Made by a program: the position numbers and the translations under genes. This document shows positions 19,287 through 51,130 of a stretch of DNA of 64,000 nucleotides, one piece after another. Source of the stretch: Prorocentrum cordatum (Eukaryota > Sar > Dinophyceae > Prorocentrales > Prorocentraceae); NCBI GenBank assembly GCA_963575745.1, contig CAUYUJ010015271.1, positions 377,908 through 441,907 of the forward strand. Direction: 5' to 3'. The notes under the pieces were generated by a model. It worked only from the letters and a program-made list of their open reading frames with translations. It had not been told where the DNA came from and ran no database searches. Within the stretch, counting starts at the first letter, position 1; the number at the start of each line of letters is the position of its first letter.

Positions 19287-22200
19287 TGGTGTAGTAGTAG
19301 TCGTAGTAATAATAGTAGTAGTAGATGGTGTTGTTGTCGCTGTTATTGATGTTGTCGCTGATGTGTGTGTGTGTGTGCTGTTGTTGATGCTGTTGTCGTG
19401 ATAGAAAGCCACGGCCCCAGAGGATCCCAAACCACTTCCCCAGGACCAGTTTTCCGCCCTGGATCAATTTTGGATTAGGGGCAAAAGCTGGGCCCAGGAG
19501 GCCAAAGTCGAGGAACAACACCCGGGTAGACCGCATCATATCGTCAGCGATCTGGGCATTGCCCTCTCTTTACACCAGCCGCTCCGTGTTGGCTGGTGTG
19601 CACGTTTGTGCCCGGGTTGGCCTGTGCGCGTCTCGCTTTCGCTTGACTTGCACTACGCCGCGCCGCTACACGCGTGGCCGCGATGTCAAACACTGCGTGT
19701 GTGTGTGTGTGTGTGTGTGCTTGTGCCCGGATAGCTCGCAGAGAGCTAAGAGCTAAGAGGGTTTCAGATTAAGAAGCCGGAGCCGCAGGGTAGCCTCGGA
19801 GATCGTTTCGGTGGCGGGCAGGACACCTCGGCGCGGCTTGCTTGAGATTGCAGCGTGTACCGAGAGGCTTTTTTCAAGCGTTTCCCCATACGCGTACTCC
19901 GAAGCTCTCCAGAAGGTCATTCGGAAGCTCTCTACAGGTCATTCCAGAGTTCTTCGGCAGGTCTTTCCACGCCCTTTGGGCCCTGCTATCCGGGTTCTGG
20001 ACCGCACAGAATATGTGTGGGGGGTTGGAGGCACGAAACATTTGAGGGGAGTGCCGACATGGGTGCGGCGACGCACGCGAGCGCAACCACCGGGGCCTTC
20101 GGTGGAGTTCCCTATGGGGCCACGAAGCGTGCGAGGGATGTGCCGAAATTTTCGCGGCGGGCGCATGCGAGCGCAGCCACTAGGGCCTTCGGTGGAGCTT
20201 TCCATGGGGCGACGAAACGTGTGAGGATGCGCCGAAATAGGTGCGGTGGGCGCATGCAAGCGCAGCCACGGGGGCCTTCGGTGGAGCTCTCTATAGGGCC
20301 AGGAAGCGTGTGAGGGGTGTGCCGAGATCGTTACGGCGGGCGCATGCGAGCGCAGCCATTGGGGCCTTCGGTGGAGCTCTCTATAGGGCCACGAAGCGTG
20401 TGAGGGATGTGCCGAGATCGGTGCGGCGGGCGCATGCCAGCGCAGCGTTTGGGGCCTTGGGTGGAGCTCCCTGTGGGGCCACGACAAGTGTGAGAGGTGT
20501 GCCAAAATGGTTGGCTGGAGTGGAGAACAGAGGCAGGGATGGGAGGAGGGAGGAGGGGGAGAAGGAGGAGCGGGAACGCGGGGCGCTGCATTGCAAAACG
20601 AGGGCCCAACACCATTGCACAATCAACTGTTTGCTTGGATATGGGATCTGATCACAGGGCAGTGCGGGCAAAGTTCTGCTTTACTTCATATTTGGATCTT
20701 GATCGGGAGATCGGCGCAAAGAGTACGGCTCGGACCAGGAAACGCGCCAGCGCATACAACAAAGGCTTGTTCAAAGAGAAGGTAACGGCACGAATGTCGG
20801 AGGTATGTTTTTCAAGCGGGCAGGCGAATTCAATGAGCGACAAGATAGAGGGCGTGCTCAACACGGAGGCTGCGGAGCCATCGATAAAGGAGGAGAAGCA
20901 GCTCAATCAGAAACCAAGGGGAAAGGCAGACAAAATACAGCATCTCATTTCTCAAAGAAAATCGTTGCCACCAGATCGATTTTCGGAGCGGGCCGACATC
21001 AGCAAGAGCATACGCAGGGAGATCCAGCGGGGCCGGAGGCAGGAGAGCCGACGCCGAATTGGAGTTTTGCTGGGACAGTTCAAGGGGATCAAGACTATAC
21101 CCCGAATGAAAACAATGAGGAACAAGTCTTTCATCCCAGCAGCTGTGGACAAGCAGGGGCGGATGCATTCAGATAGGCAGGGCATCGCGGACGTATTTGC
21201 TGAATGTTACGAAGATTTGTACCGAGCCATAGGTCCCCCAGCGGCTGGAGCAGCTGGACAGGATGGCGACATTCCTCCTGTCACACCCGATGAAGTACAG
21301 GAAGAAATCAAAGCTCTAAAGCGGGGTAAAGCGGCTGACCGGGCGGGCATCTCCAGCGATATGTTCAAGGATGGTGGTCAAGTTTTTATAGATCTGATCG
21401 TGCTTCTCTTCAACGATATTGTCAAGCCAGGGGCTACCACGCCGGAGAGCTGGAAGAAATCCTTCATTACAGTATTGTTCAAAGGCGGCGACGCAAAGTT
21501 GCCGTCCAACCACCGTCCTATCACGATCATCCCGCTGCTACACAAATTGTTCAGCCGGCTAATCAGACGACGTCTCCTAGCAGTTTTGGACAAAGCGCAA
21601 TGCGAAGACCAGGCCGGGTTCCGGGCGGAGTACAACACGGACGATCATCTATTAGCACTTGTTTTATTGCAAGAGAAATGTGACGAATGGGGGCAGCAAA
21701 TTTAGGCAGCCACGCTGGACTTCAAAAAGGCATTCGATCGCATTTCCCACGATAGTATGTGGGCTGCGCTGCAGGAGCAAGGTGTTCACATTTCTTACAT
21801 TTCCTTGTTGCAGAAATTGTATTCCGATCAAGCTGGCGTCGTTTCTTTGGACAAGACAAGCAGGGAATTCTCAATCCGCCGGGGGATGAAGCAAGGGGAC
21901 CCACTTAGTCCGACTCTTTTTAATGCTGCCATTAAGTACATATTCGAGCCACTCAAATATCGGTGGCTGGCCAATTCTTGTGGCTTCCTGCTGGGGGACC
22001 GGCTGTTGACAAATCTACGCTTCGCAGACGACGTCATGTTAGTGAGCAACACGCTGGCGGGGTTGAAGGTGATGCTTGGGGACGTGGCGGCGGCTTGCAG
22101 TGCGCATGCTTTATCTCTTCACCAGGGCAAAACGAAAATCTTGACCAACTTGCGGACGAGGAGAGGCGAATCTGCACAGCAAGGTATCTCAGTATGAGGA

Positions 22201-24268
22201 ATGGACATCGAATTATTTAAAAGAGCAGATTCTGCAAAATATCTAGGGCAGAAGAATTCGTTCCAGGGCGCACACAAGGCGGAGTTAGACAACCGGATGC
22301 ACTGTGCTTGGAGGAAGTTTTACGCGTTGAAAGACGAGCTGACGAACAACAAGTATCCAGTCAATACTAGGGTGCGCCTTGTCGAATCCGCTATAATTCC
22401 ATGCGCACTGTATGGTTCGTCGTGCTGGACGCTCACGGCAGACTTAGACCCGGTATTAATCAAGACGCAACGCCAGATGCTACGACTGGTGATTGGGTGT
22501 GGCAGGCGCCGGATCCCAGCCACTTCTCCTGCCAGGTCGACGTCGCCGGTTCCAGCTAGTTTGATTTCTTCTTCTAGTGACAATGTTGAGGACGAGGTGG
22601 AGGAGGACGAGGAGGAGTATCACGTTGAATCTTGGGCAGATTGGTTGCAGAGGACGGCGCGGAACATCGAGCAGCAGCTGGACGCGCTGGGCGTGTCGGA
22701 CTGGAGGACACAATGCAAGAGTCGCAAATGGCATCGCGCCGGAAAGCTGTTGCAATCTGAACAACATAAATGGTCTTACGCAGTTATTTTCCGGGAGCCG
22801 GGGCGCACATATGCGAGGAGGGAACGCACGGGGAGGCCCCCTCGAAGATGGGAAGATGGTTATACGGACGTTTGTCTTATACTGAACCGGGCGCAGATTG
22901 GAAGGCCTACGCCTCTGATCATCAGATGTGGGATGATATGGAGAAGTGCTACGTGGGCCTCTGAGTGAAATTGTATGTTTTTCCATGCCATCGCTGCTCA
23001 GGGCGGGTCCGCCCGCGCTTCGGCAGCGCACCGCTCTCCCCTTCATTGGGGTCAGCTGTCCGCCTGTGTAGAGCGGGTCCGAGTCCGAGTCCGAACACCA
23101 TAGGTGGTTGGGGAAAACGCGTGCGTCGTTGCGCGCAATTGTTGGCTTCATTAGGATTGCCATATCGAGGTCCCCGGAATCTATAAGAAAGAGCGGAGGG
23201 TTTGCAACATTACTTTTCCAACACGCTGCGCGGGCTCTTGTGAGCTCGTATGAGTACCATAAGTGATTTAATTTCTCGTCAAATGGAAACACGCGGGCCC
23301 TCGCTCGCGCATCCTTGTCGAATGATTCCATGCGGGCCACTCGCGCTCGTCGGCCGCGCGTTGATGGCGTGGGCATCATCATCACCCTCTTGAATCTGCA
23401 CCAGCGTGACCAGCATCGGCACCGTCATTGGCTACGCTTTCGTCATTGCCATCATCACCGCCAGCATTGTTGATATCGTCATCGTTTCCGCTGTTGCCGA
23501 CGTCAAGATGACACCGCGCCCGCCCGAGTCACCCGCGCGCCAGCGCGGCCTGTGAGACTCGTTTGGAAGTCCCCATCGGTCAGCGCCGCCGCGCCCGCGT
23601 CGGTTGTGCCAGACTAGCTAGCCGCTCTGCGCTCGAGCTTGCGCGCGCCAGCGCAGCCCCAAAGATGCGCTAGCCAGCGCCAAGCAGTCACCGCAATCGC
23701 CGCCGCATGGGTGTTGTAAATTCAATTGCGGGTGGGTGGGTGGGATGATTGTGCGAGCAGTTGGGTTGGCAATTCCAAGTTCTTCGAAAGTAAAGGCGCC
23801 GCATAGATTGCACCACGTATTATGCCATAGCACACTGTACGGGGCCCATCGTTGAGTTCGATCAACGCCACCATACTCCCCGTCACGCTCTTAGTATGCT
23901 ATCGCTTCTCCTTCTAGTTGAAGGGTGGACACATTATCCCGACACCCCATACGCTGCGTTTAGTGAATCGTCTTAGGTGTTTACTGCACAGCCCGACCTT
24001 TTTTTTCGGTTCCGTTTGTCCGACGCGTTGAGAAATTTGTTTCGTTCGTCGGGGTGCCTATTATGAGGGTTCTACTCATCACTGCGGTTGGAGCGAAAAC
24101 ACACGTAACCACCTTCGCGCGAGAGAGGCGGGCGGTTCCCTCGGTTTCCTGCTCGGCGGCCTCCTCGCGCACAACTACCAGCACCAGCAAGAGCTCATGG
24201 TCGCCAACGCATTTTGTTGCCTCGGGACCGCCATCTGCATGCTGATCATCCACCACTTCCCGCGGCAC
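14016..24268 (+). CDS. Major facilitator superfamily transporter, five inferred exons
   Basis: A polytopic membrane transporter of MFS type, substrate unknown. Joining 14016-14744, 15538-15836, 17195-17339, 17724-17756 and 24128-about 24268 keeps one frame and gives roughly 450 residues with 12 hydrophobic spans, the normal MFS size. Six spans lie in exon 1 and six in the rest, matching the two-domain fold. All exons are on the + strand. Inferred introns are GT-AG (14745-15537), GC-AG (15837-17194), GA-AG (17340-17723) and GT-AG (17757-24127), a donor mix known in dinoflagellates. The last intron carries a minisatellite, microsatellites and a dead LINE. The start is the first ATG after an in-frame TGA. 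The C-terminal end and a possible extra small exon before exon 5 are uncertain. Family assignment rests on topology and general resemblance; no database search was possible. Confidence 0.72.
14789..14952. mobile_element. MITE-A copy 7, best preserved (intron 1)
   Basis: TTAA-GTCGGGCCTG...CAGGCCCGAC-TTAA, with perfect complementarity over the first 14 bases and TTAA at both ends. It is 164 bp long, AT-rich inside (TTTTTGGAGCATTTTTCGG) and non-coding. It lies in transporter intron 1. Confidence 0.9.
14953..15537. other. Remainder of intron 1
   Basis: No repeat of the families named here. Ends in a pyrimidine-containing acceptor, CCACCTTCAG|ACAGG. Confidence 0.45.
15538..15836 (+). CDS. MFS transporter exon 2 (TM7-TM9)
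   Basis: Continues the transporter: basic linker LKKLLQSKRM, then hydrophobic spans around LAVLLIVMSAVVKGSVEE, MIGQLFLVIALAYIVSASAV and IAFVAAWLTALGISAYL. The linker of basic residues before TM7 is the usual central cytoplasmic loop of MFS proteins. The proposed GC donor at 15837 follows AGG and is needed to match the phase of the 17195 acceptor. Confidence 0.75.
16876..16924. repeat. (AC)n microsatellite
   Basis: Almost uninterrupted CA dinucleotides, about 24 units. Confidence 0.95.
17074..17142. repeat. (TCG)n microsatellite
   Basis: Pure TCG triplets, about 23 units, in transporter intron 2. Confidence 0.95.
17195..17339 (+). CDS. MFS transporter exon 3 (TM9 end-TM10)
   Basis: Begins after GATCGTAG, phase 2. 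It encodes VLVVASYEFPEDQRL, then the span LTFYGICLGLTHTPSALLLA followed by acidic DAIEHED. This fits MFS TM10 and the start of the TM10-TM11 loop. The coding sequence runs directly into the left end of MITE-B copy 4. Confidence 0.75.
17340..17525. mobile_element. MITE-B copy 4, at an exon border
   Basis: Starts GAGGGGAACGAAGG (family consensus GTAGGGGAAC) immediately after the exon 3 GAT codon. Arms: CTCGGATGCCCGCGCGGATT on the left, GCGCGGACCTCCGAGCTGTT on the right. Ends CTCCTAG at 17524 and abuts MITE-C copy 3. It supplies the 5' half of the inferred GA-AG intron. Confidence 0.8.
17526..17717. mobile_element. MITE-C copy 3, in the same intron
   Basis: TCGGGGGCGGCAGAGAGGGG on the left, CCCCCCTCTGGGCCGCTCCCGA on the right. 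Shares the internal TTCATGGCGCCTCTTCTTAT with copy 2. Followed by CTAGAG and then coding-like GAGGGCAAGGCC. Confidence 0.8.
17724..17756 (+). CDS. MFS transporter exon 4 (33 nt, loop)
   Basis: Encodes EGKAKDPEQGK, a hydrophilic stretch suited to the TM10-TM11 loop, and ends GGGAAAG|GTACCG, a canonical donor in phase 0. With the MITE pair removed, it continues exon 3 in frame (HED-EGKAKD). It may originally have been one exon with exon 3. Short, so this call depends on the gene model. Confidence 0.5.
17757..18039. other. Start of large intron 4
   Basis: Nothing recognised apart from CCATCGAACATGGATCCGGG-like sequence shared loosely with 18750-18775. The large intron runs to 24127. Confidence 0.4.
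18040..18260. repeat. Dispersed repeat E, copy 1
   Basis: Matches 56550-56760: TTGTTTTGCCG, CGGCGCGGGCCCTCGCACCC, GGCTGTTTTTGGCGCCTGTT, then AAGCGGAGGTCTGGAGCC and CCCAATGTCAAAGCG. About 200 bp, non-coding. Confidence 0.75.
18415..18582. repeat. Dispersed repeat F, copy 2
   Basis: Same order of motifs as copy 1 at 9870-10045: GCATCGCCGATGC, CTCGATGTGGAG, CATCGGCGATGCATCGG, CACCATTTGGGAGGCCTCT. Confidence 0.7.
18809..19390. repeat. Compound (TTG/TGC/TCG/TAG)n microsatellite
   Basis: About 580 bp of trinucleotide repeats: TTG/TGC-rich first, then (TCG)n at 19170-19232, then (TAG)n and back to TTG. Poly-Val, poly-Leu and poly-Thr frames in either direction are artefacts. Confidence 0.9.
19391..20039. 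other. Intron 4 sequence, unrecognised
   Basis: Includes a (GT)n run at 19697-19719 and two near-copies of GGAAGCTCTC(C)AGAAGGTCATTC-type sequence near 19900-19950. No gene seen. Confidence 0.4.
20040..20605 (-). repeat. 77-100 bp minisatellite family, array A (minus, 90-bp unit)
   Basis: Five or six units of 90 bp. Read on the minus strand, each has CACGCTTCGTGGCCC, then GGAGCTCCACCGAAGGCCCC and a GCTGCGCTCGCATGCGCCC segment. As in the other arrays, the upstream end (minus strand) has CGTTTTG and GGTGTTGGGCCCTCG and a pyrimidine-rich tract. Abuts the dead LINE. Confidence 0.85.
20615..22967 (+). pseudogene. 5'-truncated, inactive LINE (RT) in transporter intron
   Basis: Remnant of a non-LTR retrotransposon ORF2. 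Only the last endonuclease motif remains (GSDHRAV, codons from 20644). The reverse transcriptase follows in frame: PITIIPLLHKLFSRLI near 21520, DQAGFRAEYNTDDH, DFKKAFDRI near 21720, RRGMKQGDPLSPTLF near 21880, and the catalytic FADD at 22021-22032. Then come a C-terminal region and a GRPPRRWEDG motif. One frame is kept, but it has TAG at 21703-21705 (probably from a Trp codon), TGA at 22195-22197 and a frameshift near 22860-22900, after which DWKAYASDHQMWDDMEKC continues in another frame. No poly(A) or target duplication was found. It lies in the sense direction of the host gene and is dead. Confidence 0.88.
22968..24127. other. End of intron 4, unrecognised
   Basis: About 1.16 kb without a recognised gene. 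Contains loosely repetitive CATCATCACC/GTCATCG sequence at 23365-23500. Ends at acceptor GCGAGAGAG|GCGGGC. Confidence 0.45.
24128..24268 (+). CDS. MFS transporter exon 5 (TM11-TM12)
   Basis: Phase 0 start after GAGAG. Encodes AGGSLGFLLGGLLAHNYQHQ and then VANAFCCLGTAICMLIIHHF: a glycine-rich TM11 like that of many MFS proteins, a short loop and TM12. The frame then runs into a (TCC)n tract, so the true C-terminus is not visible; either the protein stops soon after or a further exon follows. A longer open frame on the opposite strand overlaps here but has no recognisable domain. Confidence 0.65.
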
Positions 24269-45459: not shown

Positions 45460-45631
45460 ACGATCGTCATCACCACCAACACTATTTCCATCACCCTCAT
45501 CACCATCACCATCCTTACCATCATCCTCATCATCCGCATCATCCTCGTCCTCCTCATCAGCATCAGCATCAGCATCAGCATCAGCATCATCATCATCATC
45601 ACTATCATTATCATCAGCGTCATCACATTAC

Positions 45632-45672
<41 letters not shown>

Positions 45673-45739
45673 CCATCGTCAGCATCATCATCATCATCAT
45701 CATAATCAGCATCATCATCATCAGCATCATCATCGCCAG
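45460..45739. repeat. (TCA/CAT)n microsatellite, left flank of the LINE
   Basis: About 280 bp of CAT/TCA triplets with CAG and CAC variants. Continues on the other side of the LINE at 50776, so the LINE inserted into one original tract. Confidence 0.9.
45718..45739. repeat. Target-site duplication, left copy (22 nt)
   Basis: TCATCAGCATCATCATCGCC followed by AG, identical to 50776-50797. It could be one base longer (A), which merges with the poly(A) on the right side. Confidence 0.85.
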
Positions 45740-45760
45740 ACTTAGCCATTTTGGCTCAAG
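45739..45760 (+). other. Dinoflagellate spliced-leader (DinoSL) relic
   Basis: 45743-45760 reads TAGCCATTTTGGCTCAAG, identical to the last 18 bases of the published 22-nt DinoSL. Of the four preceding bases (GACT, expected DCCG), two agree. The relic begins exactly where the target-site duplication ends. Confidence 0.9.
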
Positions 45761-45915
45761 GCTAAACGGGTAGAAGCTGCGAAGAAGCGAGGTAACATGA
45801 TTAGCTTTGGGATATCCACTGCGTGCTGGCTCAGGCTGGGGCCTTGCTGGCGCAGCAGAGGGCTGCAGATTCTCCTGCCGAAGTCTTCCCACTCTGTCTC
45901 GACCACTCGTCAGAC

Positions 45916-46338
45916 ATGGCGCTGGCGGCAGGCGACAGTTCGAGCTCTGCGGGAGGCCATCAGGATACTTTGCTCGCCAACATTCAGAAGATGCTCGTGA
46001 CGCAGGAGAAAAATATCACTGGCAAAACCGAGACGCTTATCAAAGAACAAGCAGCTGAAGTTCTACAGCTGCGGTCGGAGGTCACTACGAGTATGAACTA
46101 TCTAGAGGGCAAGTTCGACTCGGCGAAGAAGGACACTGACGAGCGTTTCATGAAGTTAGAGCAGATCATGTCTGGACACGGCATCCCTGTAGATGCTGAG
46201 AATAAGTACATCAATGAAGCGAATGAGAGAGTTGCTGCCCTAGAAGCAGATATAAAGGAGTTACAAGCTATGCAATCAGCTACACCTTCGACGGCCTCTT
46301 CCGTCGGGGGCTCGACACGCACCTTCTCGGACTCTTAG
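45916..46338 (+). CDS. LINE ORF1, N-terminal part (coiled coil)
   Basis: 140 residues from ATG 45916; an in-frame ATG at 45823 is also possible. It is rich in Glu/Lys/Gln with heptad-like spacing (ITGKTETLIKEQAAEVLQLR, later NERVAALEADIKELQAM), so a coiled coil probably trimerises or dimerises the protein as in other LINE ORF1 proteins. It ends at TAG 46336-46338 in the context TCT TAG T. Coding resumes in the +1 frame immediately after, so either a one-base indel or +1 frameshifting separates it from the C-terminal part. Confidence 0.7.
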   Translation: MALAAGDSSSSAGGHQDTLLANIQKMLVTQEKNITGKTETLIKEQAAEVLQLRSEVTTSMNYLEGKFDSAKKDTDERFMKLEQIMSGHGIPVDAENKYINEANERVAALEADIKELQAMQSATPSTASSVGGSTRTFSDS

Positions 46339-46981
46339 TGGGTCGAAGGCCAGACGTATTGACGGCCCCAAGAACGATGTGAACAATAAGAATCGCAAAT
46401 GGATTGGAACATTCCCTCGGATACTGTTCGCTCGGGAGCGCAGACTGCACTACACCAACACTGTTCTTCCCCTTCTGCCTGCTGATCTAGCTCATGAGAT
46501 TACGCCCAATTTCCCACGAACTGCAAAGACATATAGCTTGGAGTTCTCGACCGAGCTTGCTGCCAAGAGGTTCCAGGACATTGTTGCTGCATCACCAGAT
46601 AGTATGAAATGGACGGACCCTCGGAACCAGAGCGTACACCAGATCAAGAGCCGTGGAGACATGCCGCTGGACGTTCGTGTTCGGCAGAGAGCATGCAGCC
46701 ACATCTACGCCAAGCTTCGAGATATGCTATCAGCAGCTGGTCACGACCTCACCTGCACGCGCCTTGGGGTCAACGGCTTCCAAGGCATGATCAACCTGTA
46801 TGGAGATGCTGACAATGGCGAGATTTGGGAGATGATCTACATCAAGGGCAACGAAGTTGCAGGCTGGTCTTTCGAGCCAAACCTCACGAACTGCCGCATC
46901 TGGAAGTTGAATGACGAGGCCGTAATCGATGCCATCACGTCGGCCACCACCACAGCGAACGACCCGTCCGTGTACTTGTGA
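46337..46981 (+). CDS. LINE ORF1, C-terminal part
   Basis: Open in the +1 frame relative to the N-terminal part, from AGT 46337 (first ATG 46379) to TGA 46979-46981, about 214 codons. It begins basic (SGSKARRIDGPKND) and then shows an alpha/beta-like stretch (KTYSLEFSTELAAKRFQDIV) that could be an RRM-type RNA-binding fold, which is an inference. LINE ORF1 proteins bind the element's RNA. ORF2 starts 33 nt downstream in the same frame as this part. Confidence 0.7.
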   Translation, partial: SGSKARRIDGPKNDVNNKNRKWIGTFPRILFARERRLHYTNTVLPLLPADLAHEITPNFPRTAKTYSLEFSTELAAKRFQDIVAASPDSMKWTDPRNQSVHQIKSRGDMPLDVRVRQRACSHIYAKLRDMLSAAGHDLTCTRLGVNGFQGMINLYGDADNGEIWEMIYIKGNEVAGWSFEPNLTNCRIWKLNDEAVIDAITSATTTANDPSVYL

Positions 46982-47014
46982 GAACTTGGTTCAGAGGCTG
47001 CTGAGAGCCTGCCG

Positions 47015-50000
47015 ATGCAGGCCGAATCTTTTCGCATGAATTTGTTGAACAGAATGCAGGGCGCCTCTGCTATGTGTAGACGAGGCGAACTCGCCAGGGA
47101 TATTGCAGTTGAGTTGGGGTCCAGCAATATGCCGTTCTCTCCTCCCTCCGCTCTCTCGATTGTCACCTGGAATGCTCATGGTCTTTTTGGTGCGGTGAAG
47201 GCTACGAAGTATGCGACCGCCTCCAACCGCTGGGGGAAGTTCATTAGTCTCAGCCGTCGTTATTCAGTTGTATGTGCACAAGAGACGCATGGTCAAGTAG
47301 CAGATGTGTCGCATCTCCAGCATGATCTTCGCAACTCTAGCATTGGTCACTCGTTCTATGATGATGATAGTCGCACCGGTGGTGTTATTACAGTTATGTC
47401 GTCTTCCTTTTCTGCACTGTTTGACTCGATTGAGCATATTCCACTGATTGTCGGTAGGGTTCTTCTCTCTGTCTGCAAGGGGAAGCACGGCACGCTTGTG
47501 ATTGTGAATGCGCACCTCCCCAACGTTTGTGATCCCATTGCTACGTCCTCTCACTACCTTTCCAGGATTGCTGATGCCCTTCCTGATGCTGCTACGAGTT
47601 TTAACATTATTCTCGGGGACTGGAATTTCGTATATGAAGATGAAGGCAGGCTAACGACTGATGGGAGTGGTTTTATTCCAGGCGATAGAGCACACGCCGA
47701 CCTGTTCCATCAGAAATGCGGTTCATGGGTTGAGTTCTTCCAAGAATGTGATACTAGACTGGAAATACGGGACAAGATTATTTCTCAGACGTCGCGCCTC
47801 GACCGCATTTACTCGGACATTCCCTCGGCTCTCTTGGCTGATTTGACCATCAGCACCTCTGTGGTGGGGAGGCTTAAGAATATTCAGAGCTCGGACCACA
47901 TTCCCGTCCTGTCGGTGATCGAGAGATATGCCCCACCTGCCAATGCCCAAGCATTTGTTCCTCTCTGGCTTGCTCGTCATCCCATCTATCAGGAGATGCT
48001 GTCCTCTGCTCTTTTGGCTATGCTTGCTGATAATGACCATGGCCAGCAATGTGCTCTTCAGACCCTCGCTCGTACCAAGGATATCATGCATACCACATGT
48101 AAGCGTGCCAGGAAAGCCATTGCCAGTCGACCTGCCTCGTCGCTATCTGAGAAGTTGCACTGGTCTCTTCAGTCTCTTCGTGGTTGGCGTTTATCCAGGG
48201 AGCATATGATTATTCGTGCTATTGAATGCTACGATCATCTTGGTAGCTACTTTAATCTTGTTACTCTTGAGCTCGAACATCCTGCTTCTCTTTTTGCTCG
48301 CATCCAATCTCTGCAGACCCAGATGCTAGACAGCGAGGCCACATTGATCGAAAGCTCTCCGTCTGAAGAGGCCACCAAACGAGCCGCCCTGGAGAAGATA
48401 AGTAGGAAACAGGACATATGGAAACGGTTTCGAAGACGCACCTGGCTATCAAGTGTGAATGATGCTCATGGTAACCCATGTGCTTCCCTGGAGGATTCTG
48501 CTGATGCCCTTCGTAATCACTGGGGTGCCATCTTTGGTGACTTCGAGGCTGACACCAATCTTTGGGATGAGATCCTGAGCTTCTCTCAGAAGGCCCATGA
48601 TACCTCTGATGATTTCTGGAAAATTGACTTTGAGGAATTCAATAAGATGCTCCAAGCCCGTTCCCCCTCAATGCCCGGAGAAGATGGCCTACCGTCTCAG
48701 TGCTGGACGATCGGACCAGCTCCCAAGATTCTGTTTGCTGCATACTCGGGGTTGTGTGACGGCAGCATCTCCGACTTACCGAGTGATATGCGACGTCTGC
48801 TCATGGTTTTCTTGCCTAAAGGTACCAAGCCACATGATGAAGGCCCGATGCTTACTCGTGATTGTGCTGAGACGCGGCCATTATCCATGGGCAACACAGA
48901 TGCTAAGCTTCTCTCCTGTGCCTTCTGCATCCCACTCTCTCGCTTATCTAAGACGGTCGTTGATGAGTCACAAACATGTGTGTCTGGCCGAAGCATGCTT
49001 GGTAATGTTGTCTCTGCTGAGAGCTGGGGTATTCAGCAAGACCTTCTGGGGCATGAGCGTGCCGGTATGCTGCTTACTGATTTCGCTGCTGCATTCCCAT
49101 CCATCTTGGTCGGTTTCATGCTTGCTGTTTTGCAATCGATGGGCGTCCCTAGCTTTGTCCTCGGGTTCTACACTTTGCTCTATCGTGATAACTACGGTAT
49201 CATAACTCTCGGGGGCAAGAGATTTGATGGGTTCCAGATTCTCCGTGGCGTTCGGCAGGGTGACCCCAGTAGCATGTGTCTCTTCTGTCTCTGCCTAGAC
49301 CCCATCTTGCGATGGCTGCGAACACGCTCGGGCACTCATATTCGTCGGTCTCTTGCATATGCTGACGACTGCTTATTTGCGATGCACAACATCCTGACAG
49401 CTTTGCCGCGTGTATGGTCCTTGCTTGTTCTCATTGGTCCTGCTTGTGGTCTCTTTCTCAACTCGAAGAAATGTCAAGTACTGGTCTGTGGCTCTCTGAA
49501 TCTAACTCTTCTTCGTGATAGTGTAAATGAATATTCCAATGGCCTGGCTGAGATTGAATTCGTGCGGTACGCTAAATACCTTGGTATATATATTGGCCCT
49601 GAGGCGGGGGATCTCGGATGGCAGGAACCTCTCAGGAAGTTCTGTTCACGGACCCGATCTCTCAGACAAATGGGTCTTGGCTTAGCTGTTACTTTATCTA
49701 CTTCCCAGGTTATGTGTCTTTCGGTTCTGCAGTTCGTTCTTCAATTGTATCCTGTCCCTCAGCATGTTCTGAAGACCTATCAAGAAACACTTCAATTGCT
49801 TATGGCTGCCCCCAGACACTCATTCTCATATAATATGATCACTCGTCTTAAGACTCTGGGTCTCGACTGTGAAGCAAAGGAGATAGTCAACCTCTCTGCT
49901 GCCTCAAGGGTTCGTTTCGCTGCGTCGTGCTCGGCTGTGGAACAGGCTCGAAAAGAGATCCATGAAGTTCTTCACTCTGATGAACGTATTGTATCTAGAT

Positions 50001-50728
50001 GCTGCTCTGGTTCCCGACCCAGTTGGTACAGGTCCTCATTTCTCTTCTCTATGTTTGACGTTATCACGATAACGATGTCTGTGATACCTGAGATCCCTGG
50101 CACAAATAAGAACCTTCAACCAAAGATTTACTCTGCTCTACATAAACGTTCTCCTGCTGGTGTTCTACCGATGGATGGAGTTTATACAAGACTTACGAAG
50201 TGGGTTCCTGATATGCATCGATGTATGCTCGACTCGCGCATCAAGCAAATCCGATCTGTCTGCCGCATGACCAGCACACATATTGGATTCAGTGTCTTAC
50301 GATCCTGCTGTCGAGGGGTTTGCACTTCTGCCAGATTTCGTGATATGTCTCGTCCATCGTGCTGCTTTGGGCGTCCTATTGAGTACTCTTCTGCAGGTGC
50401 CCCCGTGAACCTCGACAACCTGAAGCACTACCGTACGTGTCCCAGACTAAAAAGCTTGTGCCTCCGCTGGATGGGTAGAGGTTTTCCTGAGGAGACTGCT
50501 GAGAGGCCGTGGTTTTCCTATCTCCTTCTCCTCTTCCCTCTGTGCGCCAATCGTCGTCTGCTTTGTGCTTGCATGTGTGACGCATTTCTCAGTGTCCATG
50601 GTCACGTTCGTAACCACCTATCTGGTACCCCTGAGCAGGCGTTCGAAGCTAGGCTCCGTTCACAGGCTCGGCGGCATAGGGCTGTTGCGAAGGCCTGGAA
50701 CGAAATGGGGATCGAACTCTTTGGGTGA
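47015..50728 (+). CDS. LINE ORF2: AP endonuclease and reverse transcriptase
   Basis: 1237 residues without interruption. The N-terminal APE-type endonuclease has TWNAHG (residues 51-56), QETHG with Glu 90, ILGDWNF and SSDHIPV with Asp 294 and His 295; it nicks the target DNA. The RT domain has FLPKGTKP, LLTDFAAAFPS (about residues 686-696), RGVRQGDPSSMCLF and the catalytic AYADD (YADD at 782-785), so all key acids are present. The C-terminal part holds several Cys/His, including CRGVC, CCFGR and LKHYRTC, possibly a zinc-binding region. The start is the first ATG after the ORF1 stop, but translation could begin nearer the endonuclease. Clade not assigned. No RNase H domain recognised. Confidence 0.95.
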   Translation: MQAESFRMNLLNRMQGASAMCRRGELARDIAVELGSSNMPFSPPSALSIVTWNAHGLFGAVKATKYATASNRWGKFISLSRRYSVVCAQETHGQVADVSHLQHDLRNSSIGHSFYDDDSRTGGVITVMSSSFSALFDSIEHIPLIVGRVLLSVCKGKHGTLVIVNAHLPNVCDPIATSSHYLSRIADALPDAATSFNIILGDWNFVYEDEGRLTTDGSGFIPGDRAHADLFHQKCGSWVEFFQECDTRLEIRDKIISQTSRLDRIYSDIPSALLADLTISTSVVGRLKNIQSSDHIPVLSVIERYAPPANAQAFVPLWLARHPIYQEMLSSALLAMLADNDHGQQCALQTLARTKDIMHTTCKRARKAIASRPASSLSEKLHWSLQSLRGWRLSREHMIIRAIECYDHLGSYFNLVTLELEHPASLFARIQSLQTQMLDSEATLIESSPSEEATKRAALEKISRKQDIWKRFRRRTWLSSVNDAHGNPCASLEDSADALRNHWGAIFGDFEADTNLWDEILSFSQKAHDTSDDFWKIDFEEFNKMLQARSPSMPGEDGLPSQCWTIGPAPKILFAAYSGLCDGSISDLPSDMRRLLMVFLPKGTKPHDEGPMLTRDCAETRPLSMGNTDAKLLSCAFCIPLSRLSKTVVDESQTCVSGRSMLGNVVSAESWGIQQDLLGHERAGMLLTDFAAAFPSILVGFMLAVLQSMGVPSFVLGFYTLLYRDNYGIITLGGKRFDGFQILRGVRQGDPSSMCLFCLCLDPILRWLRTRSGTHIRRSLAYADDCLFAMHNILTALPRVWSLLVLIGPACGLFLNSKKCQVLVCGSLNLTLLRDSVNEYSNGLAEIEFVRYAKYLGIYIGPEAGDLGWQEPLRKFCSRTRSLRQMGLGLAVTLSTSQVMCLSVLQFVLQLYPVPQHVLKTYQETLQLLMAAPRHSFSYNMITRLKTLGLDCEAKEIVNLSAASRVRFAASCSAVEQARKEIHEVLHSDERIVSRCCSGSRPSWYRSSFLFSMFDVITITMSVIPEIPGTNKNLQPKIYSALHKRSPAGVLPMDGVYTRLTKWVPDMHRCMLDSRIKQIRSVCRMTSTHIGFSVLRSCCRGVCTSARFRDMSRPSCCFGRPIEYSSAGAPVNLDNLKHYRTCPRLKSLCLRWMGRGFPEETAERPWFSYLLLLFPLCANRRLLCACMCDAFLSVHGHVRNHLSGTPEQAFEARLRSQARRHRAVAKAWNEMGIELFG

Positions 50729-50735
50729 TCTCTGG

Positions 50736-50775
50736 CCCCCCCCCCCCCCCCCCAAAAAAAAAAAAAAAAAAAAAA
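50736..50775 (+). other. LINE 3' tail: C18 then A22
   Basis: Seven bases after the ORF2 stop lie 18 C and then 22 A, followed directly by the right target-site duplication. The A-run is the expected poly(A). The C-run is unusual; it may be part of the element or a sequencing/assembly effect. Confidence 0.85.
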
Positions 50776-50797
50776 TCATCAGCATCATCATCGCCAG
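50776..50797. repeat. Target-site duplication, right copy (22 nt)
   Basis: Identical to 45718-45739, directly after the A-run. Confidence 0.85.
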
Positions 50798-51130
50798 CAT
50801 CATCATCGTCATCATCGTCATCATCATCAGCAGCACTACCATCATCATAAGAATAATCATAATCATGCTCATCAGCATCATCATCACCATCGTCATCGTG
50901 ATAGACTGGCATCACCATCACCACTCGCAGCACGCCATGAGCATCATCACCATTCACCGTCACACCCGGACTATCATCACCCCGCCCACTCACATCAGCA
51001 GCATCATCACAGCATGGCCATTAGCAGCATGATTACCATCGCCAGCAGCATCACCAGTATTGTCATTATCAGCATCATCACCACCACCATCATCACCTCA
51101 CACAGCCACATCATAACACACGCACGCGCA
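50798..51130. repeat. (TCA)n microsatellite, right flank of the LINE
   Basis: Degenerate CAT/TCA triplets continuing the tract split by the LINE, followed by ACACAC/CTCACT-rich sequence to about 51190. Confidence 0.85.

Follow-up and report, generated by a model that had tools for sequence, protein, structure and literature searches.

Recycled dinoflagellate mRNAs carry a tandem of the dinoflagellate spliced leader (SL or DinoSL; 22 nt) and a 15-nt relic of an older leader cut after nucleotide 7 at TAG/CC, according to the accessible text of PMC3229502 and PMC12014239. The type of element behind dinoflagellate retroposition is called unknown in the available portion of PMC6050394, where long terminal repeat (LTR) elements are favored, and that of PMC10235124 suspects long interspersed nuclear elements (LINEs) in the case of dinoRNAV endogenous viral elements bearing the dinoSL. 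Here, we report on a LINE in a 64,000-nt stretch of Prorocentrum cordatum DNA (assembly GCA_963575745.1, contig CAUYUJ010015271.1, positions 377,908 to 441,907 of the forward strand; hereafter the window) that begins with a relic of this leader. Comparison with its relatives across the genome indicates that, very probably and on repeated occasions, the LINE was copied up to the 5′ end of a trans-spliced template RNA. A literature search over titles and abstract openings, with most subscription papers and preprints outside its range, returned no description of LINEs that start with a spliced leader.

As in the SL-relic retrogenes of dinoflagellates (DinoSL/DinoRL), the SL stands at the 5′ edge of the retrocopy, and the tandem relic recurs in some relatives (L029, L031, L042, L043, and L045 below). 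In contrast to those retrogenes, the RNA copied here encodes the LINE machinery itself, and there are several families, duplications, an A tail, and a strand-specific microsatellite target. The dinoRNAV elements likewise have an SL relic beside retroposed sequence, but in the text available their link to LINEs is one of neighborhood, whereas the LINE in the window itself carries the leader. Trypanosomatid L1Tc/ingi elements are also LINEs in a host that trans-splices its mRNAs; L1Tc, however, carries an internal promoter, Pr77, that gives unspliced transcripts according to the accessible part of PMC4748587, whereas in the dinoflagellate LINE it is the leader that forms the start of the copies. 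With human L1 and other APE-type LINEs, the element shares the order of open reading frame (ORF) 1 and then ORF2 (endonuclease and reverse transcriptase), the poly-A tail, and the duplications. The likeness to human L1 lies in ORF2, the tail, and the duplications, while the 5′ end of the dinoflagellate LINE consists of spliced leader. Microsatellite-targeted non-LTR elements such as Dong and Waldo integrate in simple repeats; the dinoflagellate LINEs stand apart from these by their CAT arrays, APE-type endonuclease, and SL-defined 5′ end.

The element in the window occupies 45740-50775, between exact 22-bp direct repeats inside a CAT-type array, and is made up as follows.

45489..45734, imperfect on to 45739, + strand: CAT-type trinucleotide array, upstream half of the target array (Tandem Repeats Finder)
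45718..45739, + strand: left 22-bp target-site duplication, exact repeat of 50776-50797
45740..45760, + strand: spliced-leader relic, 21 nt against SL positions 2-22, exact at 45743-45760, the 2 mismatches both falling within the first 3 nt
45761..45915, + strand: 5′ untranslated region (UTR) past the SL junction, in which the AG at 45833-45834 is the counterpart of an internal SL junction in four other copies (L032-L035)
45916..46338, + strand: ORF1, first part, with its ATG at 45916; in this copy, the second part lies in another frame
46256..46981, + strand: ORF1, second part, an open frame with its TGA stop at 46979-46981
47015..50728, + strand: ORF2, endonuclease and reverse transcriptase, open throughout (QETHG, GDWN, SDHIPV; YADD; Pfam)
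50736..50775, + strand: 3′ tail, 18 C then 22 A in the sequence; tails differ among copies
50776..50797, + strand: right 22-bp target-site duplication, exact repeat of 45718-45739
50775..50897, + strand: CAT-type target array, downstream half (Tandem Repeats Finder)

At its 5′ end, the element reads ACTTAGCCATTTTGGCTCAAG, that is, the three bases ACT (45740-45742) followed by 18 nt identical to the 3′ part of the DinoSL. These 18 bases, TAGCCATTTTGGCTCAAG, are found exact at 45743-45760, which is the sole site in the 64 kb at ≤3 mismatches (shuffled sequences gave a mean of 0.04 sites, with one site in 4 of 100). When the 21 nt that start at the edge of the duplication were aligned without gaps to SL positions 2-22, both mismatches fell among the first three bases. 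The position of ACT is occupied by CCG in 13 of 13 single-SL relatives within L019-L038. The three cap-nearest bases of the window copy may have been miscopied, added without a template, or mutated since. In the accessible text of PMC7245778, about 70% of SL-type full-length transcripts begin at CC pairs (positions 2 and 8), and cytosine methylation is suspected there. The 22-mer of the duplication occurs just twice in the window, at 45718-45739 and 50776-50797, and among 60,420 pairs of left and right array positions a single one gives a 22-nt match, namely the pair at the element ends. An earlier note on this DNA had claimed a 22-nt target-site duplication, which is borne out by these exact repeats, and 18 SL bases at its very edge; the bases stand, although ACT separates them from the edge.

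By its reverse transcriptase, endonuclease, tail, and duplications, the element is classed as a non-LTR retrotransposon with an APE-type endonuclease. The reverse transcriptase domain of ORF2 was matched by RVT_1 (3.4e-15), with YADD at residue 782, and this region also matches solved R2 and L1 ORF2 chains. N-terminal to it, Exo_endo_phos matched at 0.0012 and 19.1 bits, under the Pfam cut-off of 24.5; the endonuclease call is backed by the motifs QETHG, GDWN, and SDHIPV, which we take to be typical of APE-type endonucleases, and by the homologue P0001, which is annotated with PF03372 and PF00078. The earlier note had described an autonomous LINE with a complete ORF2. We found ORF2 to be complete, but autonomy is not established for this copy because its ORF1 is frameshifted between 46256 and 46338.

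Copies were sought in the whole 4.13-Gb assembly (21,875 contigs; GC of the window, 61.4%) using window positions 45700-46300 as the query, which takes in 40 nt of flank and the element's first 561 nt. The search gave 44 rows, all of which were kept: the window itself, 20 strong copies (L019-L038), 19 weaker places (L039-L057), and 4 rows that list one of these loci a second time. Copies without the first 561 nt are invisible to this query, so the counts cover 5′-retaining copies, and the search tool gives its counts as lower bounds. The match spanned at least 456 nt in 19 of the 20 strong copies; L038 matched positions 1-167 of the query, with its SL partly inside the query. L027 and L028 have an identical flank and may be a single locus.

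Nineteen of these 20 copies begin at the SL and one (L036) is 5′-truncated without an SL. Thirteen have a single SL joined directly to GCTAA, the same junction as in the window copy. L029 and L031 have the SL, then a 15-nt relic of an older SL, CCATTTTGGCTCAAG, and then GCTAA, a tandem that is not in the window copy. In the remaining four (L032-L035), the SL is joined to GCAGGGGCC (GCAGGGG) at an internal AG 74 nt downstream of the usual junction. The leader is exact in 15 of the 19 SL-bearing copies and has one mismatch in the other four (L027, L028, L037, and L038). Judged by their sequences, these copies thus have the two marks of dinoflagellate SL retrocopies, an SL at the insertion edge (≤1 mismatch in 19 of 20) and, in some, a tandem relic. 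Seven copies (L030-L036) are 98.1-98.7% identical in all 21 pairs over ~3,350 nt, and yet their 5′ ends comprise a single SL, a tandem, four internal junctions, and a truncation, so that the 5′ end is variable on a nearly constant body. In L029, the base preceding CCG is a G, which misfits the array and is permitted at SL position 1, so the whole 22-nt SL was probably copied; in L039, an older copy, this base is an A. Read in this way, the copies reach SL position 2 and in L029 probably position 1, and they bear leaders at more than one junction as well as leaders stacked on relics cut at TAG/CC.

The SL at two junctions and the SL joined to an old relic exactly at TAG/CC are both predicted by trans-splicing and not by an inherited 5′ UTR. 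We therefore regard it as very unlikely that the element inherits its leader as a fixed feature, i.e. that an SL was captured once, that transcription starts at the DNA-encoded leader, and that the leader is passed on without trans-splicing. Thirteen of 20 copies do share one junction, and the 89 nt after the leader are well conserved, with a pairwise divergence of 2.8% compared to 4.5% in ORF2, 6.9% in ORF1, and 8.5% in the UTR that follows (21 pairs of 7 copies). Inheritance would nevertheless have to accommodate the second junction in four copies, the truncated relics behind the SL in two copies of the family and in L042, L043, and L045, and the SL followed by a tandem relic at 1,202 of the 14,218 exact SLs in the genome. 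The claim of the earlier note that the RNA template bore the leader and was copied to its 5′ end is supported by the two junctions, by the SL and relic tandems, and by the 19 of 20 copies; the note had named other copies as the place to look and had considered that common element sequence might precede the leader there. None was found in the 20 copies, where what is shared upstream is CAT-type microsatellite.

We found such an array upstream of all 20 strong copies (CATCTT in L024). On the 3′ side, an A-rich tail and then a CAT-type array followed in all 17 copies whose 3′ end could be read, the tail of L027 having 3 A. CAT is on the sense strand beside the leader in the window copy and in all 20 strong copies. 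The arrays differ in detail between copies, and matching duplications were found where the array is imperfect. Copy-specific duplications measure 22 nt in the window, 18 nt in L021, 18 nt in L024, and 20 nt in L027, and none of 34 cross-pairs was as long. In 8 of 18 copies, excessive regularity of the arrays made some cross-pairs equally long. Our script found no duplication in another 6 of 18, although by eye one is seen in L020 (after an extra G) and L038 (one base differing). The interrupted tails of L019, L031, L033, and L037 were not parsed by the script. As read from these sequences, the insertion process leaves duplications of ~16-22 nt and an A tail, and the LINE is microsatellite-targeted, with separate copies in the same simple repeat and in the same orientation. 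Just past the downstream target array, L031 and L024 have degenerate leader-like sequences (CCCAGCCATTTTGCGTCCAAG and CCATAGCCGTTTTGGGTTCGA, respectively), as if the array had been hit earlier.

The orientation is also seen in counts of exact patterns across the genome. (CAT)3 directly followed by the SL occurs 283 times compared to 1 for (ATG)3 and 6 for (GAT)3, the latter being a control for the T before the leader. (CCT)3 followed by the SL occurs 1,800 times compared to 61 for (AGG)3, a pair in which the base before the leader is uncontrolled. Directly upstream of exact leaders, (CCT)3 thus outnumbers (CAT)3 about sixfold and shows a strong orientation; the one such site that we sampled (L062, 290 nt) gave no identification. 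The majority of the 14,218 exact leaders adjoin neither (CAT)3 nor (CCT)3. It could be argued that SL-like bases lie beside a microsatellite by chance or through faulty assembly, with a false duplication made by the repeat, as both duplications are in low-complexity CAT arrays and some arrays are too regular for a duplication to be told. Given the 18 exact SL bases, the 22-nt match unique among 60,420 pairs, the 19 of 20 other copies with the SL at their 5′ edge, and the orientation bias of 283 to 1 and 6, we consider the probability of such an artifact to be negligible.

Nine of the 283 (CAT)3-SL sites continue with GGCTA; six of them belong to the window family (L019, L021, L022, L023, L026, and L030) and two are L046 and L048. 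The other 274 include at least five of the window family (L031-L035). Three further sites were sampled over 320 nt from 100 listed among the 283, and the choice was nonrandom in that L059 and L060 were picked for their tandem relic. By eye, the proteins of L059 and of L060 with L061 resemble LINE ORF1s, and L058 gave no identification. For L060, we count 7 near-identical places, L060 itself among them, together with a further place at 88% and 8 matches that are short and partial. We did not adopt the 274 sites without GGCTA as host retrogenes that would prove movement in trans, as at least five are of the window family and two of the three sampled sites are LINE-ORF1-like by eye.

These counts also bear on whether the copies are host-type retrocopies, that is, LINE mRNAs moved in trans by the enzymes of another element, which is compatible with a trans-spliced template. 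SL-bearing sequence is common, with 14,218 exact SLs, ORF1 of the window copy is broken, and 274 of 283 (CAT)3-SL sites lack GGCTA, though L031-L035 at least are among them. However, ORF1 is a single open frame in 16 of the 20 other copies (387-413 codons from stop to stop; L019-L023, L025-L030, and L032-L036) and 4 of 20 have an ORF2 open across 1,248 codons, which is what use of the encoded proteins would lead one to expect. In addition, of the three CAT-SL sites sampled, two resemble LINE ORF1s by eye. We therefore hold movement in trans to be unlikely, if less so than an inherited leader.

The SL start extends to further LINE families among the weaker places, with the caveat that both SL and CAT were in the query and their presence in L039-L057 is partly by construction. 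An SL at ≤3 mismatches was found in 17 of these 19 places and an ORF2 match in 13, partial in several (e.g. L048 and L052); by eye, the array is absent from L047 and L055. Exact SL starts after CAT arrays were found in L046, L048, and L051, whose ORF2 is ~39% identical to that of the window (over part only in L048), and in L050 (28%). RVT_1 matched L046 at 4.7e-15 and L050 at 1.4e-26; L050 has a sub-threshold endonuclease match, and in L046 no endonuclease match was obtained at E ≤ 0.1. L042 and L045 have the SL and two relics, and L043 has the SL and one relic. A 19-nt duplication is seen by eye in L051.

Several observations weigh against a trans-spliced template and its insertion as described above. 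The window copy has ACT where the leader has CCG. The internal junction of L032-L035 could also be a deletion via the 4-nt microhomology AGGC, and all four copies may have inherited it from a single event. Variability of the leader is barely below that of the adjoining UTR, with 6 differing sites in 441 compared to 53 in 1,869 for the next 89 nt (21 pairs of 7 copies), so base changes alone give no proof that the leader was renewed in each single-SL copy; we had tried lower leader divergence as such a proof and dropped it, the difference being too weak. The duplication test was informative in just 4 of 18 copies, the window included. Lastly, because SL and CAT were in the query, the independent evidence from the distant families is their LINE ORF2.

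Taking both sides into account, we put the probability that an endonuclease-type LINE family of this dinoflagellate uses the spliced-leader cycle at about 0.9. We infer that each leader came by trans-splicing and that the element's own proteins did the copying, and our placing of the transcription start site is of the same kind. In such a cycle, the element would be transcribed and its RNA trans-spliced, in most cases at the AG that immediately precedes GCTAAAC, but on occasion at the TAG within an existing SL relic or at the AG 74 nt further in. The SL-capped, polyadenylated RNA would then be both the mRNA for ORF1 and ORF2 and the template. The anatomy of the copies then indicates that target-primed reverse transcription starts at a nick in the CAT/ATG microsatellite, with CAT on the sense strand beside the leader, and that the leader is copied through to its 5′ end; the resulting copy is flanked by a target-site duplication and starts at SL position 1-2. 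In each round, anything upstream of the splice acceptor would be discarded, a loss that the earlier note rightly pointed out, and a leader would be written into the DNA.

This exposes the puzzle of how expression is maintained in an element that has its 5′ end replaced every round. Transcription may start within the leader, via the TTT(G)/TTTT box proposed in the accessible text of PMC6050394 and PMC12014239. Alternatively, a promoter may lie downstream, where conservation is higher in the 89 nt following the leader than elsewhere in the element, or the surroundings may be used. It is speculation that the array, as the orientation bias suggests, may supply the pyrimidine tract of the next acceptor. 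Possible, though doubtful, is a more general picture of LINEs without a fixed 5′ end of their own, in which strand-specific landing downstream of pyrimidine-rich repeats (CAT; CCT) would let the array and the relic TAG remake an acceptor and let the SL or the array provide a start site. Host mRNAs would, on this view, be recycled by machinery of the same class. LINEs whose own RNA took the SL-retrocopy route, with duplications and a landing site, are candidates for that machinery and come with an address, the microsatellite arrays. The tandem leader could serve as a counter of rounds.

Scans with the SL pattern of viral and prokaryote collections gave 2 viral and 8 prokaryote stretches, of which L001 and L008 were read whole and the other eight over ~90 nt around the match. 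No relatives of ORF2 were found among 11 pattern-matched stretches of viral contigs. L001 (IMGVR_UViG_3300045993_001077) has at 1936-2910 on the - strand a stretch of ~50% GC in an AT-rich viral contig (mostly 10-25% GC). The stretch starts with an exact leader, CCGTAGCCATTTTGGCTCAAG, and encodes a 254-aa protein, and at a distance of 147 bp there is a second exact leader. The stretch resembles an mRNA of dinoflagellate type that was copied into the genome of a large DNA virus, the type of virus being judged by eye. L008, a 3-kb contig binned as Dehalococcoidia, opens at 1-52 with (CAT)n and an exact leader and continues with bacterial-looking genes; its start is probably a chimeric end with dinoflagellate DNA.

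The first part of ORF1 in the window copy has weak Pfam matches, below cut-off, to families of coiled-coil type. The second part had no Pfam match above cut-off and no homologue among 95 candidates, and Foldseek matched its single-sequence fold (predicted local distance difference test score, 39) to nothing at E ≤ 0.001, so we assign it no fold. Scanning the window for Rfam families and tRNAs gave no hits. The second part of ORF1 and ORF2 are in the same frame with a single stop between them (window 46979-47014), as is also seen in many copies (e.g. a frame that ends at 1238 and the next starting at 1242), and termination-reinitiation or read-through may link the two. In several copies, the 3′ tail joins a C or G homopolymer to the A run; the window has C18A22, whereas L027 has 16 G and 3 A, and L026 a short G run with 7 A. 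At window 20497-22968, a second LINE is seen by eye, its reverse-transcriptase frame being interrupted.

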